Positions 1 to 43,408 of a stretch of 43,408 nucleotides of DNA are shown piece after piece. The translations under genes were made by a program, and so were the position numbers. The notes beneath the pieces are model-generated. The model saw only the letters and a program-made list of their open reading frames with translations, searched no databases and was not told the DNA's origin. Source of the stretch: Clostridia bacterium (GTDB lineage Bacteria > Bacillota > Clostridia > Peptostreptococcales > JAAYPU01); the NCBI GenBank assembly GCA_016278615.1, contig JADQBM010000022.1, forward strand, positions 1 to 43,408, written 5' to 3'. Each line of letters opens with the position of its first letter. Position 1 is the stretch's first letter.

Positions 1-104
1 AGGGTCGTCCCTACACATCCTTAATTACGGGCAACCGCAAGAGTCGTCCCTACACATCTCTAATCTCTAATCCCTAATCCCTAATCTCTAACCTTAATCC
101 CTAC
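1..104. repeat. Hairpin repeat plus TCYCTAA heptad array
   Basis: The first bases are the right arm of one hairpin copy (GGGTCGTCCCTACACAT). A fuller copy follows at 29-50, GGGCAACC-GCAAGA-GTCGTCCC, then TACACA. From 57 a tandem array of 7-bp units begins: TCTCTAA, TCTCTAA, TCCCTAA, TCCCTAA, TCTCTAA, then a 6-bp CCTTAA and TCCCTAC. The last unit supplies the stop codon of spoVAD on the minus strand. The same hairpin plus one TCTCTAA unit recurs at 35413-35445. The window starts inside the element, so its left end is not visible. Confidence 0.8.
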
Positions 105-6978: not shown

Positions 6979-7195
6979 AGATAATATAAGAGATAACAGA
7001 TAAGAGATAATAGTTTAGGAGGATTTTGCAGTACTGATGGCAAAATCTTCATTTATATAAACTTTACAATACTATTATCCATATCCTATTTGCTTATAAT
7101 GGAAGTTTTATAAAGTAAAACTCACCATAACTATTATCTTTTATCTGTTATCTTTTATCTCTCATTTCTTCCTGTTATCTGTTATCTATCTTTAG
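6979..7195. repeat. Complete heptad/hairpin element, copy 1 of a tandem pair
   Basis: Left heptads AGATAAT, (ATAAG), AGATAAC, AGATAAG, AGATAAT end at 7011. AGTTTAG and GAGG follow, then hairpin GATTTTGC (7022-7029)...GCAAAATC (7040-7047). A unique middle of about 50 bp precedes the second hairpin AGTTTTA-TAAAG-TAAAACT, then CACCATAACTA. Right heptads at 7134-7188 are TTATCTT, TTATCTG, TTATCTT, TTATCTC, TCATTTC, TTCCTG, TTATCTG, TTATCTA. Together with the next copy it fills the 580-bp gap between nifS and rny; I see no supported gene there. Confidence 0.85.
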
Positions 7196-7277
7196 TCTCT
7201 CTCTTATTACTAACCTAAATATCATTTTAGAATAACCGTTGGGATTTGTAAAGGAAAAGGCTTCCATAATAGAATAT

Positions 7278-7497
7278 AGATAAGAGATAATAGATAAGAG
7301 ATAATAGTTTAGGAGGATTTTGCAGTACTGATGGCAAAATCTTCGATTCGTTTTAAATCGCAGAAGCTCTCGGATAGGTAAAGCTCCCATCCCAACAAAT
7401 TTAATATAATGGAAGTTTTACAAAGTAAAACTCACCTTAACTATTATCTGTTATCTATTATCTTTTATCTCTCATTTCTTCTATTATCTTTTATCTC
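7278..7497. repeat. Complete heptad/hairpin element, copy 2 of a tandem pair
   Basis: This has the same organisation as the element at 6979-7195. The 39 bases from AGTTTAGGAGG to GCAAAATCTTC (7306-7344) are identical to 7012-7050. Left heptads are AGATAAG, AGATAAT, AGATAAG, AGATAAT. Right heptads at 7444-7497 are TTATCTG, TTATCTA, TTATCTT, TTATCTC, TCATTTC, TTCTA, TTATCTT, TTATCTC. The middle differs from copy 1 and holds a separate small stem (TTCGATT...AATCGCAGAA). The array ends one base before the rny terminator stem. Confidence 0.85.
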
Positions 7498-10421: not shown

Positions 10422-10462
10422 AAAGGTCATTGACGGAGAAAACAACCAGCTACTATAAAAAA

Positions 10463-10531
10463 GATTTTGCACTTGACGCAAAATCCTCCTTAACTCTTAT
10501 CTATTATCAGTTATCTCTTATCTTTCATTTA
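10463..10531. repeat. Half element overlapping the 3' end of minD
   Basis: Hairpin GATTTTGC (10463-10470), ACTTGAC, GCAAAATC (10478-10485), then CTCCTTAACTC and heptads TTATCTA, TTATCAG, TTATCTC, TTATCTT, TCATTTA (10497-10531). A TCATTTC unit also follows the TTATCTN run in the elements at 7162 and 7472, so TCATTTA here belongs to the array. That unit contains the minD stop codon (TGA on the minus strand) and the preceding codon. Confidence 0.85.
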
Positions 10532-24780: not shown

Positions 24781-24822
24781 CAGATTGGCATGGAATGTAT
24801 ATCATTTGTTTCTTACAACGAG

Positions 24823-25172
24823 AGAGGATTTTGCAACTGCAAAATCCTCTTTATAAATCTTAAATCTTAAATCCTGAAGCCCTAGCTCAAATCTATGATT
24901 TGATGCGCAGGTCTCATACAAGTGGAACTTTCTAATCTATGATTAGTTAAAGTTGCCATTCGCTCCGTGGAAACTCTCCAATGTTGAAGCCCTAGCAGTA
25001 ATCTTCGATTACGTCGCAGGTCCAACGAAACAAGTGGAACTCTTCAATCTTGGATTGGACAGAGTTGCCATTCGCAACGAGATAGAAATCTCTGATTTCG
25101 TAATCGAGACTGCGGAAATTTAAATTTCGTCGTTGAGACTGCTTGATTGGCTAAGAGTTTTTCAGTTAAATC
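24823..25172. repeat. Hairpin plus two tandem covarying stem-loop units
   Basis: The region opens with a perfect 12-bp hairpin, AGAGGATTTTGC-AACT-GCAAAATCCTCT. Three heptads follow: AAATCTT, AAATCTT, AAATCCT (24855-24875). Two units of about 110 bp then start at 24875 and 24985, each opening TGAAGCCCTAGC. Unit 1 has stems TCAAATC/GATTTGA and AACTTT-CTAATC/GATTAG-AAAGTT. Unit 2 has GTAATC/GATTAC and AACTCT-CAATC/GATTG-AGAGTT. Two smaller stems follow (GAAATC/GATTTC at 25085-25099; GAAATTTAAATTTC at 25115-25128), and the region ends TTAAATC at the stop codon of the PBP gene. The 390-bp gap holds no supported gene. Confidence 0.85.
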
Positions 25173-28233: not shown

Positions 28234-28364
28234 AGATAATAGATAACAGATTATAGATAATAGTGGCGGAGGATTTTGTTTCACAAAATCTTTAAATAAA
28301 AAGAAAGTTTTGCATTTGCAAAACTCACCTTAACTGTTATCTATTAATTTTTATCTATTATCTT
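28234..28364. repeat. Complete heptad/hairpin element (type copy)
   Basis: This is the cleanest complete copy. Left heptads at 28234-28261 are AGATAAT, AGATAAC, AGATTAT, AGATAAT, then AGTGGCG-GAGG. The left hairpin is GATTTTGT-TTC-ACAAAATC (28272-28290). A short middle leads to the right hairpin AGTTTTGC-ATTT-GCAAAACT (28306-28325), then CACCTTAACTG and heptads TTATCTA, TTAATTT, TTATCTA, TTATCTT (28337-28364). The ends are inverted repeats of each other. It fills the gap between two convergent genes. Confidence 0.88.
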
Positions 28365-38123: not shown

Positions 38124-38344
38124 TTCGGTGTTCGGTGTTCGTAGTTGTAATGCGGTTCGCAGTTGGTAGTTCTAAGTTCGAAGTTTATAGGCAATTATTA
38201 TAATGAAAGATTTTGCTCCCACAAAATCCTCCATAAACCCTGAAGTCCTAGTCAGAATCTTTGATTCTGTCACAGGTCTCATACTGGAATTCTAAAATCT
38301 CTGATTTTAATAGAATTCTTCAGTTAAATCTTAAATCTAAATTG
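38124..38344. repeat. TTCNNAG heptads, hairpin and third covarying stem-loop unit
   Basis: Heptads TTCGGTG, TTCGGTG, TTCGTAG, an 11-base unit, TTCGCAG, TTGGTAG, TTCTAAG, TTCGAAG, TTTATAG run from 38124 to 38190. A hairpin GATTTTG...CAAAATC (38209-38228) follows. A unit opening TGAAGTCCTAG (38241) has stems CAGAATC-TTT-GATTCTG and GAATTCT-AAAATC-TCT-GATTTT-AGAATTC. Two TTAAATC heptads and TAAATTG end at 38344, three bases before the stop codon of the dacF gene. The gap of about 320 bp holds no gene; the scpAB promoter is at its left end. Confidence 0.82.
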
Positions 38345-42154: not shown

Positions 42155-42322
42155 AGATAATAGATAACAGATAATAGATAACAGTTAAAGATGGTTTTGA
42201 TACTCAAAATCTTCAATTATAACAATTATTTTTAGAATTGTTTCTATATTTTATAAAATATGAAAGTTTTGCCAAGCAAAACTAACCTTAACTATTATCT
42301 ATTATCTTTTATCTTTTATCTT
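42155..42322. repeat. Complete heptad/hairpin element
   Basis: Left heptads AGATAAT, AGATAAC, AGATAAT, AGATAAC, AGTTAAA (42155-42189) lead to a left hairpin GGTTTTG-ATACT-CAAAATC. After about 55 AT-rich bases comes the right hairpin AGTTTTGC-CAA-GCAAAACT (42265-42283), then AACCTTAACTA and heptads TTATCTA, TTATCTT, TTATCTT, TTATCTT (42295-42322). It occupies the gap between xerD and deoB and ends 12 bp from the xerD stop codon. Confidence 0.87.
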
Positions 42323-42334
42323 TTTTTAATCTTT

Positions 42335-43219: not shown

Positions 43220-43284
43220 TTTTTTCTCCTGTTTTTCCAATCTTTAGTTATATTATACAACAACACAGATGAAAAAAAAATAAA

Positions 43285-43408
43285 AGATAAAAGATAAGAA
43301 ATAAGAGAGTTAACAGATAATAGAAAGATAGATAAGAGATAATGAAAAGATAGATAAGAGATAATGAAAAGATAGATAAGAGATAATGAAAAGATAGATA
43401 AGAGATAA
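43285..43408. repeat. AGATAAN heptads passing into a 22-bp tandem repeat
   Basis: Heptads AGATAAA, AGATAAG, AAATAAG start at 43285. From 43323 a longer unit, GAAAAGATAGATAAGAGATAAT (first copy one A shorter), repeats four times at 43323, 43344, 43366 and 43388; the fourth is cut by the window end. The 22-bp unit is itself made of AGATAA words. It lies about 65 bp upstream of the xerD start. Confidence 0.85.

Follow-up and report, generated by a model that had tools for sequence, protein, structure and literature searches.

Heptanucleotide tandem repeats of bacterial genomes have been reported for decades and, to our knowledge, have no accepted origin beyond polymerase slippage; the intervening sequences (IVSs) of rRNA genes that carry an S23 gene are, as far as we know, regarded as selfish elements of unknown mobility. 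The 23S rRNA IVS of Coxiella has complementary ends, encodes S23p and carries tandem GACAGAT heptamers just before the gene, in a number that varies between strains; the first of these GACAGAT repeats is where RNase III cleaves (PMC4990558). Here, a 43,408-nucleotide stretch of contig JADQBM010000022.1 from a Clostridia bacterium (the window) was analysed with respect to a non-coding element at positions 28,234 to 28,364, which is bounded by inverted arrays of seven-base repeats. We conclude that S23-type, IVS-like mobile elements exist outside rRNA genes together with non-coding derivatives. The copies in the window and those sampled elsewhere in the genome lie between protein genes and not inside a 23S rRNA gene, and so the term IVS denotes likeness rather than membership. 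If heptamer repeats and rRNA IVSs form one element family, both puzzles become testable and the arrays can be read as scars.

The rRNA IVSs of Coxiella, Leptospira and others resemble the present elements in the protein family encoded inside, in their complementary ends and, in Coxiella, in the heptamers before S23, but the present elements lie between protein genes, have long arrays at both ends and sub-terminal hairpins, and occur in hundreds of non-coding copies. Cyanobacterial short tandemly repeated repetitive (STRR) sequences, the TAACTGA repeats of Beggiatoaceae and the GGGNATC repeats of Xanthomonas and Nostoc are likewise intergenic, with 7-bp units in variable number; these are reported as stand-alone arrays, whereas the arrays described here, also in cyanobacterial plasmids, form inverted pairs that enclose either a hairpin core or an S23 gene. 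Repetitive extragenic palindromic (REP) sequences and REPINs, with their REP-associated tyrosine transposases (RAYTs), are likewise dispersed between genes, and their inverted hairpins also come in pairs that share a conserved foot; the foot is GTTAAGG-like here and GTAG in classical REPs, and the present elements add outer heptamer arrays and have no cognate RAYT that could be found. The accessory protein Avd of diversity-generating retroelements (DGRs) belongs to a homologous four-helix-bundle family (PMC10053308), but the host genome contains no DGR, the only reverse transcriptase found there being that of a group II intron rather than one accompanied by template and variable repeats. Heptamer repeats and S23-bearing IVSs were thus known separately, and IVS-like S23 elements outside rRNA genes with non-coding derivatives appear to be new; the only link between heptamer repeats and S23 IVSs found in the literature is the Coxiella report, in a search that excluded subscription papers, and priority is not certain.

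Architecture and abundance of the heptamer elements

A complete copy consists of an array of 3-10 units, a foot, a hairpin, an A+T-rich spacer, a second hairpin, an inverted foot and an inverted array. The foot is GTTAAGG or a close variant, the first hairpin is often GATTTTG..CAAAATC and the second is often AGTTTTGC..GCAAAACT. In the 28,234-28,364 element, the left array, (AGATAAN)4, occupies 28,234-28,263 on the plus strand and is followed by hairpin 1 (AGGATTTTG..CAAAATCTTT; 28,270-28,293, plus strand), by hairpin 2 (AAGTTTTGCATTTGCAAAACT, then CACCTTAACT, with the inverted foot motif AGTTAAGG; 28,305-28,325, plus strand) and by the right array of TTATCTN units (28,337-28,364, minus strand), which is inverted relative to the left; the whole unit has a predicted RNA fold of -45.7 kcal/mol (z -9.0). 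Essentially every period-7 array placed in the window by an earlier sequence-only reading is present, and the inverted array ends that it described on complete copies are borne out at 28,234-28,364, at 42,155-42,324 (AGATAAN arrays; RNA fold -50.4, z -8.8), at 6,979-7,196 and at 7,274-7,497 (RNA fold -68, z -8.1), all of them non-coding. That reading had also proposed a few fixed hairpin cores; instead, the core varies (GATTTTG, AGTTTTGC, AAATTTG, TTTTAC or terminator-like stems), and the conserved piece is the GTTAAGG-like foot.

The catalogue comprises 53 complete copies and 88 halves. The core is common to different heptamer families, yet within a copy the two arrays are mostly of one family, with 26 AGATAAN, 6 TAATGAA and 4 GATTTAR end pairs and a minority of mixed pairs. 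Unit families include AGATAAN, TAATGAA, GAATTAA, GATTTAR, ATCCCTA, CAGGTGA and GTTCGAA. Outward from the hairpin, the unit of an array often changes, and the order AGATAAN, ATCCCTA, CAGGTGA, CAGGGGA seems to recur (L095:13865 region, L090:17183, L015:149 and L022:19825).

The arrays cannot be put down to chance. The 3.5-Mb genome has 508 occurrences of the AGATAA-type trimer AGATAANAGATAANAGATAA, compared with 9 of a reversed-pattern control, and the array-plus-foot pattern AGATAANAGATAANAGTTAAGG occurs 72 times, compared with 0 for its control; in 60 genomes searched, the exact array-plus-foot pattern is confined to the host genome and two others of its family. For the array statistics, 1.11 Mb of the genome was read in stretches picked mostly around known matches, so that counts per Mb are enriched, and 172 kb of intergenic DNA within this sample was analysed. 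It contains 237 period-7 arrays, compared with 0, 1, 0, 4, 2 and 1 arrays of periods 5, 8, 9, 10, 11 and 13, respectively, whereas the arrays of periods 14 and 21 are harmonics of period 7. Seven-base intergenic tandem repeats are therefore over-represented relative to other periods, in the manner of STRR sequences. The autocorrelation proposed by the sequence-only reading extends the 7-bp period beyond the window, and the lag-7 signal persists with AGATAA masked. Of the 237 arrays, 192 (81%) have a hairpin no more than 14 nt away, as opposed to 29% of random intergenic positions, in agreement with the earlier claim that arrays adjoin hairpins. A smaller class of 36 period-6 arrays, with units that are apparently AAGTTT/ACTTAA, is also intergenic.

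The S23 gene and empty sites in cyanobacterial plasmids

Facing consecutive halves that lie 300-4000 bp apart enclose, in two of four cases, a small open reading frame for a 23S_rRNA_IVP/four helix bundle protein (PF05635, TIGR02436). The host genome possesses four PF05635 genes (E 5e-40 to 3e-27), all of which lie within heptamer arrays; the copies in the window are non-coding, and the S23/IVP gene is present only in coding copies elsewhere in the genome. One of these, L128, has the layout (GATTTAA)n, GG, hairpin, gene, hairpin, CC, (TTAAATC)n, and pairing of its two arrays is predicted to enclose the gene in a perfect heptamer stem of 32 bp. The arrays of L125 consist of GTTAGAG units, next to a hairpin foot of the usual GATTTTA type, and at both L125 and L128 the foot and hairpins are the same as in the non-coding copies. 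The gene at L127 sits between two complete non-coding copies, and L126 has GGTTCGA/ACCACGA arrays.

A survey of 85 usable PF05635 loci was drawn from other Clostridia, genomes from the scan for the array-plus-foot pattern, Bacteroidota and cyanobacterial plasmids, with the same loci shifted by -800 or +800 bp and the Y1_Tnp genes of the same Bacteroidota genomes as controls. A period-7 array lies within 250 bp at 45 loci and on both sides at 26, of which 25 are inverted and 1 direct. The shifted controls have any array at 11 and 5 loci and inverted pairs at 1 and 0, respectively, and arrays are present at 0 of the 25 Y1_Tnp genes. The units vary by locus and include AGTAGGG, GAACAGG, CAGAAGT, GTTCACG and AGAGGTG. 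The comparison with cyanobacterial STRR sequences made from the sequence alone was right in substance, given that cyanobacterial heptamer arrays flank the same PF05635 family.

Empty sites were found for the gene-bearing cyanobacterial relatives. The region of L183, on a conjugative plasmid of Trichormus variabilis, is ~97% identical to gene-less plasmids of the filamentous cyanobacteria Aulosira, Nostoc linckia and Tolypothrix (L252-L254), and the insert, located 3' of the upstream stop codon, consists of exactly array, S23 gene and inverted array, flanked by two copies of GTAAT. A second empty site, from the comparison of L191 with L258, has TTCTA on both sides. Since the insert spans arrays and gene at the empty sites, the arrays belong to the moving unit. 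Further empty sites exist at L185, L181, L187, L179, L180 and L182, where the junctions are too altered for a reading of target duplication. The empty-site comparison suggested earlier thus succeeded for cyanobacterial gene-bearing relatives, with 5-bp direct repeats at two of them, whereas the clostridial copies lacked a same-genus genome for comparison.

The S23 stop codon lies inside the right heptamer array at L183, L187 and L191, and so the array sequence encodes the last S23 residues there. In two cyanobacterial genera, Pseudanabaena and Anabaena (L178 and L182), S23 elements separate cas6 from cas4 in type I-D CRISPR operons; no S23 gene intervenes between cas6 and the following cas4 in Nostoc UHCC 0302 and Dolichospermum (L257 and L256).

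Mobility, arm pairing and alternative origins

Non-coding cores from unrelated loci are homologous over their full length, in both orientations and with up to 92% identity, and the homology between dispersed cores ends within the arrays. Taken at the level of sequence comparison, the architecture, the dispersal, the joint insertion of arrays and gene in cyanobacterial relatives and the complementarity of the arms in register are evident, and the seven-base arrays are the matching inverted ends of small mobile elements in at least three phyla. The 28,234-28,364 element and its hundreds of relatives are probably the non-coding members, comparable to miniature inverted-repeat transposable elements (MITEs), of an element family whose coding members carry S23/IVP. 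Three origins had been left open by the sequence-only reading; the dispersed cores and the empty sites of gene-bearing relatives favour a small mobile element, whereas matched inverted arms and empty sites speak against replication slippage alone.

Slippage as the whole explanation would make the heptamer the favoured slippage length of the polymerase, as Mrazek and co-workers have proposed (cited in PMC4679880 and PMC4692102), with the hairpins merely stalling replication. Among the long repeat units of many genomes the heptamer is the most frequent, and its copy number differs from strain to strain (PMC4679880, PMC4692102, PMC4990558), and the arrays described here differ in length and mix units, all of which would be expected from slippage. 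It leaves unexplained, however, the matched inverted families at both ends, the homologous cores elsewhere, the association with PF05635 and the co-insertion of arrays with the gene; as a full account it is largely refuted and very improbable, but slippage may tune array length.

The two arrays of one copy are complementary in register for about five units, and arm agreement at family-specific positions is 0.76-0.89, compared with about 0.5 after permutation (p<0.002). The predicted RNA of the window copies forms one long stem of ~30 bp closed by the arrays, with both hairpins inside; fold z scores range from -6.8 to -9.0 over the copies folded and from -8 to -9 for the window copies, and the predicted fold is stable on both strands. 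An Rfam search of the window matched no family. Pairing of the free N between AGATAAN arms was considered and rejected, with if anything fewer matches than expected, and the stem therefore has a mismatch every 7 bp.

This strongly predicted RNA structure also bears on the suggestion, made from the sequence alone, of an RNA 3'-end structure, according to which the copies, whatever their origin, are bidirectional terminators, mRNA-stabilising devices or RNase III processing sites under selection. The copies lie 3' of stop codons at a median distance of 18 nt and avoid divergent gaps (arrays in 12 of 91, compared with 26 of 74 convergent gaps), the fold is very stable on both strands and some hairpins are of terminator type. 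Most stems, however, are A+T-rich and lack a U-tract, and the copies sit at unrelated genes, with the exact pattern in only three same-family genomes among those searched, a spread that resembles that of an element and not of a conserved device. A selected RNA device is accordingly an unlikely rival to mobility, although it is compatible with a mobile element, in which case it may describe an effect on host RNA.

Under a REPIN-like origin, a Y1 (RAYT/IS200-type) transposase would mobilise the two inverted hairpins with their conserved foot, and the heptamers would be secondary slippage at the hairpin bases. The paired inverted hairpins and conserved foot do resemble REPINs, and the host genome possesses six Y1_Tnp genes, of which L032 has its own REP-like repeats and L033 lies between heptamer arrays. 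None of the six, however, is flanked by GTTAAGG-GATTTTG hairpins, and the REP-type repeats beside L032 and L033 differ in sequence from the element hairpins. TnpB/IS605 is likewise absent from the genome, and the 25 Bacteroidota Y1 genes examined have no arrays. The empty sites place the arrays inside an insert bounded by 5-bp direct repeats, whereas Y1 elements are not known to make target direct repeats. On this evidence a REPIN-like origin is improbable. Three candidates for the mover or its partner were rejected: Y1/RAYT, because none of the six genes has element hairpins; IS605/TnpB, because PF07282 is absent; and a DGR-type reverse transcriptase as S23 partner, because the sole reverse transcriptase found belongs to a group II intron. 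No partner enzyme for S23 was found among the TnpB, Y1 and reverse transcriptase candidates in the genome.

For the S23-type mobile element, a mechanism may be proposed by analogy with the 23S rRNA IVS. The two arrays would pair in the transcript into a stem of ~30 bp that could serve as an RNase III substrate, and cleavage would free the element from the host mRNA, so that an insertion between genes would do little harm. The S23 protein, together with a host or other enzyme, would recognise the heptamer/hairpin ends and so promote the mobility both of its own element, in cis, and of non-coding copies, in trans. Period 7 would be maintained by a reading of the ends in repeated units of 6+1, and slippage would alter the number of units and homogenise the arms. 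Ends that change in sequence yet keep their period and mutual complementarity would be unusual for a mobile element. More tentatively, these elements could constitute a transposase-less class across Bacillota, Bacteroidota and Cyanobacteriota in which S23 is the sole gene, the inverted, fast-changing heptamer ends are recognised by period and pairing and not by a fixed sequence, and many bacterial heptanucleotide repeats, STRR sequences included, are footprints.

Several observations weigh against an S23-type mobile element. The 5-bp direct repeats were read at two cyanobacterial sites only, and the empty sites come from cyanobacteria only, with no same-genus genome among the relatives searched for the clostridial copies. 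Between arms, the free N of AGATAAN shows no complementarity (26 of 111 pairs in 29 complete copies, compared with 32% after permutation). About half of the PF05635 loci, mostly from Clostridia outside the host's family and from Bacteroidota, lack detectable arrays. The PF05635 sets were selected partly by best score or by prior AGATAAN arrays; the pattern-scan set is biased because its genomes already hold AGATAAN arrays, a bias that the Bacteroidota and cyanobacterial sets do not share. Heptamer arrays also flank one of the six Y1 genes (L033). Finally, we know of no catalytic activity for the S23 family and no catalytic motif is evident in 28 aligned S23 proteins, and for this reason a role of S23 in mobility is one that we infer.

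Other arrays in the window and neighbouring repeat families

The adjacent elements within 6,979-7,497 have near-identical halves and unrelated spacers, suggesting that halves were exchanged or converted independently of the spacer. Half elements on the minus strand comprise a hairpin with a TTATCTN array (1,699-1,761), the hairpin GATTTTGC..GCAAAATC with a TTATCTN array (10,457-10,531) and the hairpin GGATTTTGC..GCAAAATCC with an array of another heptamer family, TAAATCT (24,820-24,875). Positions 38,124-38,344 hold a GTTCGGT/GTTCGAA-type array, the hairpin GATTTTGC..CAAAATC and, further on, a TTAAATC array, as a mixed or decayed element. The array at 43,281-43,408 (plus strand) is long, derives from AGATAAN and shows a higher-order repeat of 22 bp; it is the left arm of an element that runs past the end of the window (L115:1-192). 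Just beyond the window, L115:978-2810 holds the group II intron, whose reverse transcriptase is the sole RVT_1 gene found in this genome.

The (ATCCCTA)-type array at 57-104 (minus strand) lies beside a REP-like hairpin, GGGCAACCGCAAGAGTCGTCCCTAC, and is associated with a different hairpin family: the GGRCAACC-GCAA hairpin, which had been taken as an element hairpin, belongs to a separate REP-like family. The Y1 gene of L032 lies amid many GGACAACCGCAAGGGTCGTCCCTACG repeats, a REP-like family that is also present at positions 1-56 of the window, and is probably a clostridial RAYT with REPs of its own. Heptamer arrays of GAATTAA and TTATTCA units bracket the Y1 gene at L033:1195-1940 with its GGGTCGGGCACAGGACCC repeats, as though this gene had inserted into a heptamer element or made use of one. 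REP repeats of the GGACAACC type occur inside some element spacers (L103:9809 and L097:8601), where one repeat family is nested in another.
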